DNA of 29,758 bases from a virus. The notes below the pieces were generated by a model. It made no database searches and had not been told where the DNA came from. It was given only the letters and a program-made list of their open reading frames with translations. The position numbers and the translations under genes were made by a program. The stretch covers positions 1 to 29,758 of IMG/VR virus record IMGVR_UViG_3300020455_000069. One strand, given 5' to 3'. Position 1 is the stretch's first letter. Each line of letters opens with the position of its first letter. Shown in pieces: positions 3,331 through 29,758 of this stretch.

Positions 3331-3869
3331 TGCCAGCAAGAGTTACAAAACCAGCATTTAATTTAAGAGATAAATTAACCCAACTTGATGGAACAGTTCC
3401 ATATGAGAAGATGCCAACTGGGAGTATTTGGCTTTTAAATCATACAACTAGTGCAACTCGAACTAATGTTAGTAGTAACCAAACTTGGACATCACTTGGT
3501 GGTCTTTCAATAGATGTTATTCAAAGAACTATAGGTAGTACACTATGGGTTGAACATAATTTCACTATGGAATTACAAGATGGATGTAATGGACTTCATT
3601 TTAGAGTATATCGAGAGGTAGTTGGGAGTAGTTGGGGTGCAATACAAGTTTATCTTCATTCTCAGCATTCACATTGGTCAACTAGTACACCTGACTGGAC
3701 TGGACCTGGTACAATTTATCTAACCTTTATGGATGAACCAAATGTACCTCTTGGTCAGAAAATAAGATACTATGTTCAGTGTTATAAAGAAGCTGGTAAC
3801 AATCTTTATTCTAATTATGGACAAGATGAATCAGGTATTCAAAACACAGTATGGGAGATTAAAAAATGA
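3330..3869 (+). CDS. Small virion structural protein, fibre-associated (179 aa)
   Basis: Starts at the A shared with the previous stop (TAATG) and ends overlapping the next start (ATGA), placing it in the fibre operon. The N-terminus MPARVTKPAFNLRDKLTQLD resembles the short leader of other phage fibre-tip proteins I have seen. The rest alternates in beta fashion (WTSLGG, LHFRVYREV, IQVYLHSQHSHW, GTIYLTFMDE, IRYYVQCYKE), which suggests one compact beta-sandwich or jelly-roll head. There is no enzyme motif. A fibre-tip or accessory structural role is inferred from position and composition. Confidence 0.6.
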   Translation: MPARVTKPAFNLRDKLTQLDGTVPYEKMPTGSIWLLNHTTSATRTNVSSNQTWTSLGGLSIDVIQRTIGSTLWVEHNFTMELQDGCNGLHFRVYREVVGSSWGAIQVYLHSQHSHWSTSTPDWTGPGTIYLTFMDEPNVPLGQKIRYYVQCYKEAGNNLYSNYGQDESGIQNTVWEIKK

Positions 3870-4225
3870 AAATAGGTATAGAACACGCAATACGAGCATT
3901 GCATCCTGATGCACAGTTTACAATGGTTGATGATGACATTACTGAATGGCATTCATCAGGTATAACCCAACCAAACAGAAAAGATCTTAATGCAAAGGTT
4001 ACTGAATTACAAAACGCAGAACCTCATAGACTTCTTCGTATAGAAAGAAATCGTCGTTTGCAAGCAACTGATTGGAGAGCATCTTCTGATCTTACAATAT
4101 CTAATGATTGGAAATCGTATCGACAAGCATTGCGAGACCTTCCTGCACTTTCTACACCAAAATTAGATTCTAATGATAATTTAGATTTGACTTCCGTAGA
4201 GTGGCCATCTGAGCCATCATCTTGA
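3866..4225 (+). CDS. Phage tail assembly chaperone-like protein (119 aa)
   Basis: The C-terminal half carries the signature RxERNRRLQATDWRASSDLT...YRQALRDLPAL (residues about 78-113). This pattern, R-x-x-R-x-x-L-x-x-[TS]-D-W followed by YRQALRDLP, is typical of small phage tail assembly chaperones encoded next to fibre genes (I expect a Phage_tail_APC-like family). These proteins help fold or assemble fibres and are usually not abundant in the particle. The N-terminal half (IEHAIRALHPDAQFTM) is also common there. It overlaps the preceding fibre gene by 4 bases. The stop lies in the -35 hexamer of the next promoter, so this is probably the last gene of the unit. Confidence 0.7.
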   Translation: MKIGIEHAIRALHPDAQFTMVDDDITEWHSSGITQPNRKDLNAKVTELQNAEPHRLLRIERNRRLQATDWRASSDLTISNDWKSYRQALRDLPALSTPKLDSNDNLDLTSVEWPSEPSS

Positions 4226-20172: not shown

Positions 20173-20221
20173 AGGCAACCAGTGGGAAAACTGGCACAAA
20201 ACCCCCTCAAGGGGGTTTTTT
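20173..20221 (+). ncRNA. Candidate very short RNA (about 50 bases, two hairpins)
   Basis: Between the promoter at 20138-20166 and the terminator lies room for a transcript of about 50 bases. It contains a small hairpin, CCAGT (20179-20183) with ACTGG (20190-20194) around a 6-base loop, then the terminator hairpin. It codes for nothing. It could be a regulatory RNA, or the hairpin may simply be part of a compound terminator; part of the sequence (ACTGGCACA then CCCC) recurs at 29374-29389. Confidence 0.35.
20198..20221 (+). terminator. Intrinsic terminator of the late region
   Basis: AAAACCCCC (20198-20206), loop TCAA, GGGGG (20211-20215) then six T form a classic Rho-independent terminator. 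The T-run leads directly into the extended -10 of the next promoter. Confidence 0.85.
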
Positions 20222-20223
20222 AA

Positions 20224-20232
20224 TGCTATAAT
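20224..20232 (+). promoter_or_regulatory. Extended -10 promoter (TGCTATAAT) for helicase operon
   Basis: TG-C-TATAAT lies three bases after the terminator T-run. The -35 position falls in the terminator hairpin and has no consensus, so the TGn extension probably compensates. The transcript start is near 20239, some 19 bases before the helicase ATG. Confidence 0.65.
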
Positions 20233-20257
20233 ATATCCATACAATCAAAGAGCATAG

Positions 20258-21678: not shown

Positions 21679-21938
21679 AGGACTGGTTAAACTTAAATGA
21701 AAATACTCCTTGGATTAAAGGATATGAGGATAAGCACTCAAATCCTGTATTCAAGCATTGTAAGAATCCTGATAAGTGGGAAGTGAAAGATAGTAGGTTT
21801 ATTATGTTTCGTTATGGTGAAGGTGGTGCAATAGACATCAAAATTAGAGAGAACAATACTGATTTTAAACATGACATAAACATTACTGTTGATGATGATG
21901 GTAAGTTGAAGGCAATAGTATCAGAACAAACAAAATGA
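21675..21938 (+). CDS. Hypothetical acidic protein (87 aa)
   Basis: I choose ATG 21675, which overlaps the previous stop as ATGA. A longer reading from 21540 would translate bases belonging to the membrane protein and gives an implausible Cys-rich leader. The protein (MKDWLNLNENTPWIKGYEDK, FIMFRYGEGGAIDIKIREN, DINITVDDDGKLKAIV) looks like a small mixed alpha-beta domain. Its last four bases overlap the methyltransferase start. Function unknown. Confidence 0.65.
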   Translation: MKDWLNLNENTPWIKGYEDKHSNPVFKHCKNPDKWEVKDSRFIMFRYGEGGAIDIKIRENNTDFKHDINITVDDDGKLKAIVSEQTK

Positions 21939-22897
21939 GAGATTTAATACTATTTGGAGATTGTAGGGATACTCTCAAAGAGTTTGATGAGAAGGCGAGG
22001 ATGTGTGTTACATCTCCACCTTATTATGGTTTAAGAAACTATGGAGGGGAGGATTGTCAGATAGGGTTAGAAGAATCTCCAGAAGAGTATATTCAAAAAT
22101 TAGTAGAAGTATTCCGAGAGGTGCGTAAAAATCTAACAGAAGATGGAACATTGTGGTTAAACATTGGTGACAGTTATTATAACTATAGACCTGGAAAAGG
22201 GCAAGCATTAAATAAACAATCTGTATCAAATACTAAGCAGGATTTACCAGACAAGTGTGCAAGGAGAGGTAATAAGTTAGAAGGACTAAAGGAAAAGGAT
22301 CTCATTGGTATTCCTTGGATGCTTGCGTTTGCATTGAGAGCAGATGGATGGTATTTGAGGCAGGATATTATATGGCATAAACCTAATCCAATGCCTGAGA
22401 GTGTGAGAGATAGATGTACCAAGGCACATGAGTATATCTTCCTGTTGAGTAAGAATAAGAAGTATTTCTATGACAATGAAGCAATAAAGGAACCAGCAAA
22501 GGACTGGGGAACCAGAGATAGAAGTAAAGGTAAGTATCATAATGAAGGAACAGGACTACAACCACATTCAGGTCTTTCTAAATCATATCCAACTAAGAAT
22601 AAGAGAAGTGTATGGTCAGTGACTAATAAACCATACAGAGGGTCACACTTTGCAGTATTCCCACCCGACTTGATTGAACCATGTATCAAGGCAGGGAGTG
22701 AGGAAGGTGACATTGTGTTAGATCCATTCATGGGTAGTGGAACCACTGCTATGGTGGCAAAATCACTAGGTAGAGACTACATTGGATGTGAGTTACATGA
22801 AGACTATGGTAATCTAATTCAGAAGAGATTGAATGAATACCGTCCAGTTAAAGAAGTGTCACAAGAACCTAGCATAAACATCCTAGATATTGTATAA
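21935..22897 (+). CDS. Solitary DNA methyltransferase, beta-class order (320 aa)
   Basis: Catalytic motif IV reads TSPPYYGLRNYG (T26-S-P-P-Y30) and the SAM-binding motif I DPFMGSGTTAMVA (about 263-275), with RDYIGCELHEDY after it. Motif IV before motif I is the order of beta-class amino-methyltransferases. SPPY is more typical of N4-cytosine enzymes, although some adenine enzymes carry it. A variable target-recognition stretch lies between (about 150-240; PNPMPESVRDR, NEGTGLQPHSG). No restriction partner is adjacent, so it probably protects phage DNA or marks it for regulation. ATGA overlap couples it to the gene before. Base specificity cannot be read from sequence. Confidence 0.8.
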   Translation: MRDLILFGDCRDTLKEFDEKARMCVTSPPYYGLRNYGGEDCQIGLEESPEEYIQKLVEVFREVRKNLTEDGTLWLNIGDSYYNYRPGKGQALNKQSVSNTKQDLPDKCARRGNKLEGLKEKDLIGIPWMLAFALRADGWYLRQDIIWHKPNPMPESVRDRCTKAHEYIFLLSKNKKYFYDNEAIKEPAKDWGTRDRSKGKYHNEGTGLQPHSGLSKSYPTKNKRSVWSVTNKPYRGSHFAVFPPDLIEPCIKAGSEEGDIVLDPFMGSGTTAMVAKSLGRDYIGCELHEDYGNLIQKRLNEYRPVKEVSQEPSINILDIV

Positions 22898-27437: not shown

Positions 27438-27656
27438 ATGCTTAATTTAGACGAACGATACCAATCTTATTTGACTGGTGATAAGAAATTGAGGATAGAT
27501 GGTGTAGATGAAAGAGTAGTTGCGTATGGATATACTGACGATGGAAGTAATATTGATGGATATTACTTGACAACTCCCAATTATAGGTTAAACTATACAT
27601 TGGAAGGCATATTTCTTAGAATGACAGCAATTAGAGAGGTTGTGGAAGTCTTCTGA
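27438..27656 (+). CDS. Hypothetical small beta protein (72 aa)
   Basis: Starts 25 bases after the TGTTATAAT box. Sequence MLNLDERYQSYLTGDKKLRI, ERVVAYGYTDDGSNIDGYYL, TTPNYRLNYTLEGIFL suggests a small antiparallel sheet with many Tyr and Gly. No family recognised. The leader contains TTAGAG (27427-27432), a weak ribosome site. Confidence 0.55.
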   Translation: MLNLDERYQSYLTGDKKLRIDGVDERVVAYGYTDDGSNIDGYYLTTPNYRLNYTLEGIFLRMTAIREVVEVF

Positions 27657-27686
27657 AATATATAATATGAGGTAATTCAATCAATT

Positions 27687-27953
27687 ATGTCTAAAATTAA
27701 GCACGATTTAGAGCATGAAGTGTATCTTGATCCCAAAGATGGGAAAGAACATGTTAATCACGGTATGTTGGAGTATAGTGAGGCAGATTTGAAAGATGTT
27801 CATGCAGATTATGAAGAATATCACAAAAATGATGAGGTTGATAAGAATGATGCCACTATTAATGACTGGCACACTAGGCATGAGGATAAACATTTAGAAG
27901 TATATTGTGATAATCACCCTGATGCAATGGAATGTAGAGTATATGACGATTAA
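27687..27953 (+). CDS. Hypothetical acidic, His-rich protein (88 aa)
   Basis: Very acidic with about ten histidines (KHDLEHEVYLD, EHVNHGMLEY, DWHTRHEDKHLEVYCDNHPD) spread over a helical chain. This could bind metal, but the spacing matches no known site. A TATAAT at 27661-27666 may serve it, and GAGG is found at 27669-27672. It is followed at once by a terminator, so it is a one- or two-gene unit with the 72-aa gene. Confidence 0.55.
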   Translation: MSKIKHDLEHEVYLDPKDGKEHVNHGMLEYSEADLKDVHADYEEYHKNDEVDKNDATINDWHTRHEDKHLEVYCDNHPDAMECRVYDD

Positions 27954-27965
27954 ATAAGTGTAACA

Positions 27966-27988
27966 AGACCCCCCACAGGGGTCTTTTT
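27966..27988 (+). terminator. Intrinsic terminator
   Basis: AGACCCC (27966-27972), 5-base loop, GGGGTCT (27978-27984) and a run of T to 27988. It runs directly into the extended -10 of the next unit. Confidence 0.85.
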
Positions 27989-27990
27989 AA

Positions 27991-27999
27991 TGGTATAAT
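27991..27999 (+). promoter_or_regulatory. Extended -10 promoter (TGGTATAAT) for the R-M-like pair
   Basis: TG-G-TATAAT starts three bases after the terminator T-run. The transcript would begin near 28006, 17 bases before the putative endonuclease ATG. Same arrangement as at 20198-20232. Confidence 0.65.
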
Positions 28000-28022
28000 A
28001 CTATTAATTACACACTTACACA

Positions 28023-28622
28023 ATGTTTCCAAGAGAATTGGTTGAAGCAGTTGAGTATTTGAATACATTAACTATTGTAGTTAGTGAGAACCATGAAGAT
28101 GGTAGAGTTAATAGTATAGATGATGAGGATACAATTATTGATCTTTTGATTGAAAGATATGGTGACAATGTAGAGAAACCACCTGCAAGATGTTGGTGGG
28201 ATCTTAAACTATTTGGTTATCCTATTAATATTAAATCATCTAAGTTTGGAAGTGCAGCAGATAACTTCTCATCTAAGGCAGCAATATTATATGCACTAAC
28301 TAATCTTCCAGAGAGTGAAGTTACATGTAGTTCTTGGAAACAATTCCAGAAGAAGTTACAGCATAATTCTTCACAACTAACACCAAGAGATTATTATATC
28401 ATAGTATTAAACAAAGTAACTAAGCAAGTACATTTAACATCACTCAAATCTCTCAATAAACTAACATCTAATGGCAATAATCTACCATTTCAAATTAAAT
28501 GGAGAGATAATGTATCTCCTATAGAAAGAACCTATTTACAAGCATACGATTTTTTGATAGAATGTTACAAGGAATCAGTAATGAAAAAGATTACATCGCA
28601 TGATGGATTTGAAGAACTATAA
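28023..28622 (+). CDS. Putative type II restriction endonuclease, PD-(D/E)xK-like (199 aa)
   Basis: The N-terminal half contains an acidic helix (SIDDEDTIIDLLIERYGDNV) and then CWWD60-LKLFGYPIN69-I-K71-SSKFGSAADNFSSKAAILYALTNL. D60, N69 and K71, with E35 or D36 before, fit a PD-(D/E)xK nuclease core with Asn in place of the usual acidic residue before x-K. The 'fGYPvNIKss...DN...K.aIlYALT.L' string resembles a group of type II restriction enzymes I have seen. Supporting context: the adenine methyltransferase gene starts inside its 3' end and both follow one promoter. It would cut DNA unmodified by that partner. Alternative: a different nuclease or an inactive relative. Confidence 0.55.
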   Translation: MFPRELVEAVEYLNTLTIVVSENHEDGRVNSIDDEDTIIDLLIERYGDNVEKPPARCWWDLKLFGYPINIKSSKFGSAADNFSSKAAILYALTNLPESEVTCSSWKQFQKKLQHNSSQLTPRDYYIIVLNKVTKQVHLTSLKSLNKLTSNGNNLPFQIKWRDNVSPIERTYLQAYDFLIECYKESVMKKITSHDGFEEL

Positions 28623-29373
28623 TATACAATTAGGTGATTGTTTAGAACTAATGAAACAGATTCCAGATGAGTCTGTTAATTTAATATGTTGTGATCCACC
28701 CTACGGCACAACATCTATCAAGTGGGACTCTGTACTTGATTTTGGTAGAATGTGGGAAGAGTATGGTCGTATCATAAAACCTAAAGGTGTGATATGCTTA
28801 TTTGGTTCTCAACCATTTACATCACAATTAATATGCTCTAAGTTAGACTGGTTTAGATATGAATTAGTATGGAATAAGAATAAGTGTGGAAGTCCTGGAC
28901 TTGCTAAACATAGACCAATGAAAACACATGAGAATGTAATAATATTCTATAAAAATGCTGGTGGAACATATAATCCACAGATGGAGAAGGGAGAACCATT
29001 TAAGAGACAGAGTAAGAACCCAGAAGGTTATGTAAGTAAAAGAAATCCTCATGGTTATGGTCTTAAACCTGTAAAGGGATTTGAGAATAAAGGAACACGT
29101 TATCCTAAGTCAATCTTGAATATATCAAGAGACTTCTCTGCACAACAGCAAGTACATCCAACACAGAAACCAGTACCATTAATGGAGTGGTTGATTAAAA
29201 CATATTCTAACAGTGGTGAGATGGTCTTAGACAACTGTATGGGGTCAGGATCTACTGGTGTTGCATGTATGAAACTCAATAGACAGTTCATAGGTATGGA
29301 GACTGATCTTGAGTATTATAAGATAGCAGAGGAAAGAATCAAGAATACTGGCATTGATATAGACAGTTATTAA
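28600..29373 (+). CDS. DNA adenine-N6 methyltransferase, beta class (257 aa)
   Basis: Motif IV is D32-PPY35-GTT, typical of N6-adenine enzymes, and motif I DNCMGSGSTGVA (about 211-222) comes after it, which gives the beta-class order. Other family matches are RIIKPKGVICLFGSQPFTSQ, YELVWNKNK, HENVIIFYK, HPTQKPVPLMEWLI and FIGMETDLEYYKIAEERI. The target-recognition region is probably residues 125-185. The gene starts 23 bases inside the putative endonuclease gene, the arrangement of a restriction-modification pair. I take ATG 28600; ATG 28603 is equally possible. A terminator follows 11 bases after the stop. Confidence 0.85.
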   Translation: MMDLKNYNIQLGDCLELMKQIPDESVNLICCDPPYGTTSIKWDSVLDFGRMWEEYGRIIKPKGVICLFGSQPFTSQLICSKLDWFRYELVWNKNKCGSPGLAKHRPMKTHENVIIFYKNAGGTYNPQMEKGEPFKRQSKNPEGYVSKRNPHGYGLKPVKGFENKGTRYPKSILNISRDFSAQQQVHPTQKPVPLMEWLIKTYSNSGEMVLDNCMGSGSTGVACMKLNRQFIGMETDLEYYKIAEERIKNTGIDIDSY

Positions 29374-29383
29374 ACTGGCACAC

Positions 29384-29406
29384 AACCCCTTCACAAGGGG
29401 TTTTTT
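29384..29406 (+). terminator. Intrinsic terminator after the methyltransferase
   Basis: AACCCCTT (29384-29391), 3-base loop, AAGGGGTT (29395-29402) with T-run to 29406. The preceding ACTGGCACA is shared with the terminator region at 20190. Confidence 0.85.
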
Positions 29407-29408
29407 AA

Positions 29409-29417
29409 TGGTATTAT
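29409..29417 (+). promoter_or_regulatory. Extended -10 promoter (TGGTATTAT)
   Basis: TG-G-TATTAT follows the T-run by two bases, the third example of this exact arrangement. Its transcript would start near 29424 but no convincing gene follows. Confidence 0.5.
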
Positions 29418-29423
29418 ATAAGA

Positions 29424-29594
29424 GTGGAAAACAAACGAGGTTCTCAACTACTCTGACATTCATCTTAATTAGACTTCGCAAAGGAGTTAGGATAGATGAT
29501 AAGAAGCAGAGACATGACGTTGGGGTAATCATACTACAGGTACAGTCCTCAGTTTTGTTTTCCTTCACCACATTACAAAGTGTCACATCCGAGG
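29424..29594 (+). other. Noncoding stretch, no gene seen
   Basis: Downstream of the TGGTATTAT box. A 72-codon frame from 29408 begins inside that promoter, lacks a ribosome site and has no protein-like pattern. An AGGAG at about 29481 precedes an ATG giving only ten codons. I see no tRNA and no strong hairpin. Confidence 0.5.
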
Positions 29595-29622
29595 TTGTAT
29601 CAAGATGTAAAACTGCTATAAT
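29595..29622 (+). promoter_or_regulatory. Promoter TTGTAT-16-TGCTATAAT for structured RNA
   Basis: TTGTAT (29595-29600), 16-base spacer, and TATAAT (29617-29622) with a TG extension at 29614-29615. The transcript is predicted to start at about 29629, right at the base of a perfect hairpin. Confidence 0.65.
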
Positions 29623-29628
29623 ATGAAA

Positions 29629-29758
29629 GTTGAGAGATAAGAGAACGAATCGGATTAAGTTCCTCTCCTCTTATCTCTCATCTGCTCTAATCTCCTTGTA
29701 GTTTCAGGATTAGGGGCGATAGGAAACTACACAGTGGGCAAACGCAAGGCAGGGGTGA
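29629..29758 (+). ncRNA. Candidate structured RNA with hairpin and pseudoknot (runs off window)
   Basis: The first element is a perfect 13-bp stem, TGAGAGATAAGAG (29631-29643) with CTCTTATCTCTCA (29668-29680), loop 24 bases. Next, CTCTAATC (29685-29692) can pair with GATTAGGG (29708-29715, one G-U). TGTAGTTTC (29697-29705) can pair with GAAACTACA (29723-29731). The two pairings interleave, so together they make an H-type pseudoknot. No start codon with ribosome site or protein-like frame is visible. It matches no RNA family I know (not tRNA, tmRNA or RNase P core). It could be a free noncoding RNA or a long structured leader of a gene beyond the window. Confidence 0.5.

Follow-up and report, generated by a model that had tools for sequence, protein, structure and literature searches.

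A pseudoknot RNA with its own promoter in T4-like marine cyanophages, associated with exchangeable RNA modules

The put RNA of HK022 is a 5′-terminal phage RNA located at the start of an operon, and its two stem-loops act in cis on the polymerase. In phage T4 two other RNAs, RNAC and RNAD, lie in the tRNA gene cluster. They are small, expressed by T4 and of unknown function (PMC9697503). T4-like cyanophages have the structured manA RNA (RF01745), for which a pseudoknot is suspected, and wcaG RNA (RF01761) is also a known structured RNA of cyanophages (PMC2864571). A 2023 survey of non-coding RNAs in S-CREM1 searched Rfam only (PMC9964418). The DNA analysed here, hereafter the window, is a whole virus record of 29,758 bases, whose closest matches among relatives are T4-like cyanophages. 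Its last segment, 29595–29758, is almost certainly the 5′ part of a structured RNA of a T4-like marine cyanophage, which the end of the record cuts off. Like manA, this element is a structured cyanophage RNA and adjoins both manA and tRNA-Arg in ACG-2014f and S-B43 (in the order pseudoknot, tRNA-Arg, manA RNA), but manA has another sequence, is described by a 192-position model and co-occurs as a separate neighbour. No match to manA was found in the window at the gathering score, nor in 29374–29758 at E up to 10. wcaG RNA, present as the element is in S-SM2, Bellamy and S-SKS1, differs from it in place and sequence and gave no match to the window at gathering or lenient thresholds. With RNAC and RNAD the element has in common that it often adjoins phage tRNAs, and in T4 the best match of the covariance model R1, defined here for the pseudoknot family, was not significant (E 0.03). 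Compared by architecture only, put consists of two stem-loops, whereas the element combines one hairpin with a pseudoknot, is present in single copy and has variable downstream content.

The absence of a recognised family, proposed in the first-pass annotation of this DNA, was borne out by the Rfam search of the window, which gave no match at the gathering threshold. A lenient search (E up to 10, 29374–29758) returned only sub-threshold microRNA, snoRNA and sRNA noise. In the relatives L004 and L005, Rfam 15 (E up to 5) registered manA, tRNA and sub-threshold matches only, none of them on the pseudoknot, and 11 further loci had no match over it. The tRNA/tmRNA search of the window found none. 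RNase P RNA, tmRNA, a group I intron and GOLLD (judged by eye from GGCAAACGC and GGCGATAGG) were discarded as candidates, having no Rfam support in the window or in relatives. The literature on cyanophage pseudoknots held nothing describing the element, though large computational surveys of phage RNAs may list it uncommented. The element is new relative to Rfam 15 and the literature searched, and is without annotation even in P-SSM2. Phages are seldom searched for structured RNAs, and in this long-used genome the pseudoknot and several companion RNAs have stayed unannotated.

The features of the region are the following.

29424..29575, + strand: module A, a neighbouring structured RNA without prior description (inverted repeat I4, promoter scan, covarying relatives).
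29595..29622, + strand: promoter, composed of a −35-like TTGTAT, a 16-nt spacer and an extended −10 TGCTATAAT (sequence).
29628..29683, + strand: P0, the 5′-terminal hairpin closing the foot of the RNA, with the insert J in its loop (inverted repeat I1; covariation).
29637..29674, + strand: insert module J, ATAAGAGAACGAATCGGATTAAGTTCCTCTCCTCTTAT, an exchangeable hairpin whose interior is conserved and whose stem varies (core recurs in relatives).
29686–29693 with 29707–29714, + strand: pseudoknot stem S1, 8 pairs including two G.U (covariation).
29697–29705 with 29723–29731, + strand: pseudoknot stem S2, 9 bp (covariation).
29694–29696 (L1), 29706 (L2) and 29715–29722 (L3, GGCGATAG), + strand: pseudoknot loops (sequence).
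29734..29758, + strand: beginning of module C (25 nt, GTGGGCAAACGCAAGGCAGGGGTGA), truncated by the record end (22-nt core in 26 viral contigs).

The earlier observation holds, and the finding exceeds what was first noted. A third module (C) begins in the last 25 nt, and a second RNA without prior description (module A) lies just upstream.

The promoter combines TTGTAT at 29595–29600 with an extended −10 element that includes the upstream TG and has its TATAAT at 29617–29622, and transcription is predicted to start near 29629. Because its −35 hexamer matches the consensus in only 3 of 6 positions, this promoter was missed by a generic promoter scan. Relatives nevertheless keep a promoter at the same position upstream of P0, and in L041 and L190 the corresponding stretch is nearly identical to that at 29595–29622. 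Of the 80 relatives scoring at least 5/6 pairs, 63 have a −10 hexamer whose end lies exactly 5 nt ahead of the P0 arm; P0 arms were picked to maximise pairing, so that pair counts are biased upwards and the spacing to the −10 less so. Independent loci show a fixed order, in which the promoter is followed by hairpin P0, with the 3′ arm ending in the CU of CUGC, and then by the pseudoknot. The window has the same arrangement: its P0 arm starts from 29628, about 5 nt after the −10 at 29617–29622, and the hairpin ends at CUGC, of which the linker GC joins P0 to the pseudoknot. The segment 29629–29758 is not covered by any ORF of 60 aa or more, and a coding explanation of it was dropped. The promoter elements and the ORF-free stretch described previously are there.

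The pseudoknot belongs to the classical H-type (loops 1, 2 and 3 of 3–5, 1 and 8 nt, respectively), and according to the comparison of sequences it is real, with overwhelming covariation. In the alignment of 84 distinct sequences seven of the eight S1 positions were paired in 98–100% and showed up to 5 pair types each, while a conserved G.G prevailed at the eighth; S2 was paired in 98.9%. When the 3′ letters of this alignment were re-dealt, the observed pairing was reached in 0 of 500 shuffles. A 32-sequence alignment had 99.4% of cells paired against 83.6% in shuffles, with changes on both sides in 11 of 16 pairs (6 of the 7 counted in S1, 5 of 9 in S2), and a shift of the partner by one column dropped pairing to about 49%. 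Part of S2 and the loop GGCGATAGG belonged to the search pattern, so that this loop is invariant in part because of how the sequences were chosen; in P-SSM2 and L190 GGCTATAG stands in its place. Covariation of S1 is not a selection bias, since S1 lies outside the loose search pattern that supplied most sequences. Model R1 matched the window at 29682–29731 with 64.0 bits (E 1.9e-17, R1 E-values being rough). A divergent pseudoknot with the loop GGCTATAGT was registered at 488–538 of L190 (29.9 bits), behind a P0 that carries module J, and suggests that the family is wider than the search pattern caught.

P0 itself is formed by 29628–29636 and 29675–29683, and its arms covary in relatives (AGTTGA/TCAACT, AGTCGT/ACGACT, AGTGGT/ACCACT and GGTCAG/CTGACT, among others). 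Attention had been drawn to this place by a perfect 13-bp hairpin with the transcript start at its foot. The stem is indeed there (29631–29643/29668–29680) and can be lengthened to 16 positions, one of them a U.U mismatch (29628–29643/29668–29683); the promoter would place the predicted start at its base. The accompanying argument that chance would hardly give such a stem was too strong: 8 dinucleotide shuffles of the window yielded 2 perfect stems of at least 13 bp, that is about 0.25 expected per window, and the nested fold of 29629–29758 had a z of only −1.4 against shuffles. The stem alone thus leaves room for a chance hairpin, which is ruled out by covariation. Both pseudoknot stems covary and the promoter–P0–pseudoknot order recurs in independent loci, which sets the element beyond chance. 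The two interleaved downstream pairings read earlier as a pseudoknot correspond to S1 and S2, and the compensatory changes proposed as a check were found in homologous phages for both these stems and for P0. The 13-bp hairpin turned out to be composite, made of the closing stem P0 and one swappable insert, J. A pseudoknot so well backed by covariation and placed on its own promoter is a clean target for probing, structural work and knock-out in culturable phages.

A search with 29374–29758 gave short matches in intergenic regions of cyanophages, falling into two separate blocks. In viral contigs the window's 3′ end was found at 26 loci and the pseudoknot, in two scans, at 18 and 14, whereas a looser pseudoknot pattern gave at least 119 stretches. 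Altogether the pseudoknot is present in at least about 150 viral contigs and in 60 phage records, all from Synechococcus phages or marine phages. Wherever checked, it appeared in single copy: in 147 of 147 contigs (counted with short patterns on loci), at one place in each of the 60 records, as one strong R1 match in each of 15 records, and once in the window record, which is a 29.8-kb fragment. A host origin was rejected, as two patterns, which span only part of the family diversity, had 0 matches in 84,980 prokaryote genomes. Weak R1 matches in S-SSM4 (inside a structural gene), T4, P-HM2 and P-SSM4 were judged to be noise (E 0.005–1). The pseudoknot is absent or unrecognisable in Syn9, S-PM2, P-SSM4, P-HM2, Syn33, S-CRM01, P-TIM68 and T4, and since many cyanophages (Syn9, S-PM2, P-HM2, P-SSM4) have no recognisable copy, the element is not essential. 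What we describe is a conserved RNA family of T4-like marine cyanophages with a fixed promoter–P0–GC–pseudoknot order, single in the contigs checked and located beside or around mobile single-copy modules.

Among 128 distinct instances the pseudoknot is followed by tRNA-Arg(UCU) in 50 and by tRNA-Pro(UGG) in 10, the tRNA starting 2–5 nt after it. Other RNA modules follow in 18 of the 128, and the rest are mostly ORFs of several unrelated kinds, so that no downstream gene is conserved across instances. In P-SSM2 the pseudoknot lies between hsp20 and purM, with manA RNA slightly upstream. The 2–5 nt spacing could reflect a role in tRNA processing, and at the many loci where a gene follows directly the element could serve as a leader. 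Its own promoter, single copy and changing neighbourhood are as expected for an independent RNA gene, and these properties favour a released trans-acting small RNA over a regulator of a single gene or a repeat family. We tentatively prefer, while rating it somewhat short of an even chance, the reading that 29595–29758 is the 5′ part of an independent phage small-RNA gene, whose product would be released by processing and act in trans. The element would be transcribed by the host RNA polymerase with a sigma70-type factor, and the start-site hairpin together with the compact pseudoknot would protect the RNA ends. Cleavage of the long transcript just past the pseudoknot would be due to RNase P at loci with a tRNA 2–5 nt further on and to other RNases elsewhere, and would give an RNA of approximately 65–105 nt. 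Most plausibly, this RNA would bind a host or phage protein, for instance a nuclease, RNA polymerase or a translation factor, with the conserved loop GGCGAUAG and the CCUU strand as contacts. The module accommodated by the P0 loop, J in the window, may constitute a second RNA domain on the same scaffold.

The main rival assigns to the element a role in cis, as a stabiliser whose hairpin and pseudoknot shield tRNA precursors, RNA arrays and early mRNAs from the 5′-end-dependent RNase E or the 5′-to-3′ RNase J. The constant location at the transcript 5′ end agrees with it, as does the long closing stem near a promoter with which modules A and G likewise open, and infection by cyanophages, namely the podovirus P-SSP7, is reported to raise host RNase E (PMC9692554). 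A generic stabiliser should, however, recur within a genome, yet the element is single; upstream of a tRNA it would be removed immediately by RNase P, and the conserved unpaired loops exceed the needs of a plain block. We consider this explanation unlikely, though worth keeping in mind. Less probable still is that P0, J and modules B (the pseudoknot), C, D and E are neutral or selfish cassettes which phage recombination disperses and which lack a dedicated function. Modules do lodge at common apical sites and pass from one context to another, but covariation this intense, together with conserved loops, calls for selection acting on RNA, and near-strict single copy is unlike a selfish repeat.

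Further possibilities concern the transcript on which the element lies. H-type pseudoknots are a common riboswitch architecture, and the element does occupy 5′ UTRs, one example being the purM leader region of P-SSM2. A riboswitch or other metabolite-sensing leader built on this fold is, however, very improbable judging from the sequences: no Rfam riboswitch matched, and in place of a consistent metabolic context we find tRNA-Arg, tRNA-Pro, RNA modules and unrelated ORFs, that is, genes with no common pathway and many instances preceding tRNAs or other RNAs. The first-pass annotation had suggested a phage regulatory RNA, a decoy or a riboswitch-like leader. From this proposal the promoter-driven pseudoknot RNA stands, owing to covariation, while the riboswitch-like leader is weakened by single copy and by location upstream of tRNA-Arg, tRNA-Pro, purM, small ORFs and other RNAs. 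By analogy with HK022 put, one can also imagine a processive antiterminator, in which the 5′-terminal RNA would bind the transcribing polymerase and allow read-through of a long untranslated array of tRNAs and other RNAs. The 5′-terminal position on long untranslated transcripts resembles that of put, but the same order also precedes single short ORFs, and a consensus scan of both strands, limited to 27600–29758, found no terminator-like site after 29402; we give antitermination as little credit as the riboswitch.

The loops of P0 and of module A accept exchangeable modules. The J core was found in P0 loops (the window, L190), in loops of module A (L007, L045, L185, L186, L194) and in loops of module G (L180, L191). 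Its stem changes in a manner that keeps pairing (ATAAGAG/CTCTTAT, ACAAGAG/CTCTTGT, GATAGAG/CTCTATC, TAAGGGTG/CACCTTTA). Matches to the J core in L179, L182, L184, L187 and L188, where the rest of the module is missing, were set aside as chance-like. Besides J, the P0 loop may contain module G (L017), module F (L022) or the core of module A (L043). At many loci module C runs on for approximately 170 nt to ...GTAAGTCCCAC, and its closing stem covaries (GTGGG/CCCAC, GAGG/CCTC, TGGGG/CCCCA, CTAGG/CCTAG).

Module A has its own −10, TATTAT, at 29412–29417 near its foot, an outer stem (29426–29435/29554–29563) and two inner ones (29445–29448/29519–29522 and 29451–29455/29507–29511). The inner stems covary: CAAC/GTTG occurs with CTCTG/CAGAG, TTTC/GAAA with GTCTG/CAGAC, and CTAAAC/GTTTAG with CTAAGA/TCTTAG. 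Its apical site holds 17 distinct contents, from 1 to 166 nt long; module C occupies it in its entirety in L028, and module D in L035. In the window the apical insert at about 29459–29501 is TCATCTTAATTAGACTTCGCAAAGGAGTTAGGATAGATGA, and the motif TAATTAGACT...GTTAGGAT is common to this insert, to a free-standing module of P-SSM2 (L172, about 3857–3923) and to L010/L035. The −35-like TTCACA of module A (29390) overlaps the terminator of a methyltransferase gene. Two ORFs have DNA methyltransferase-like motifs (DPPY/SPPY): the one at 28600–29373 matches cyanophage genes annotated as DNA adenine methylase, and the one at 21935–22897 was judged by eye only. The terminator and promoter stretch after the methyltransferase gene (29374–29420) has a copy at 20190–20235 with 87% identity.

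None of these modules matched Rfam at the gathering threshold in the loci scanned. Per contig they are nearly always single (C in 25 of 25, J in 13 of 13, A in 28 of 29, D in 27 of 28, E in 26 of 27, G in 41 of 42), as counted with short patterns on loci rather than on whole genomes. In the whole genomes of P-SSM2 and P-SSM5 the stretches A, D, E, G and H occur once each, as does the pseudoknot. It is conceivable, although we would not count on it, that marine T4-like cyanophages possess a kit of single-copy structured RNA genes (A–H, J, perhaps manA and wcaG), shuffled between loci and nested in one another's hairpin loops without loss of function; a single transcript would then combine several RNA domains that act on the host in trans. 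If so, the kit would represent, in RNA, a combinatorial counterpart to auxiliary genes, and we know of no described parallel to it. The nesting of single-copy modules raises the question whether an RNA gene can reside inside the loop of another RNA gene, and whether phages exchange RNA functions by way of loop modules. Both manA and wcaG are catalogued as cis-regulatory; the former, and perhaps the latter too, may belong to arrays of this kind. At 1501–1839 of L004 and 1504–1842 of L005 manA RNA stands directly after the pseudoknot and tRNA-Arg(UCU), and not in the 5′ UTR of a gene; this position after tRNA-Arg questions its cis-regulatory label. In L006, L017, L026 and L172 modules (C, D and others) have a terminal motif, 5′ GGCA... 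and 3′ UGUAAGUCC, which sits inside the variable closing stem, as if the modules had a common plug.
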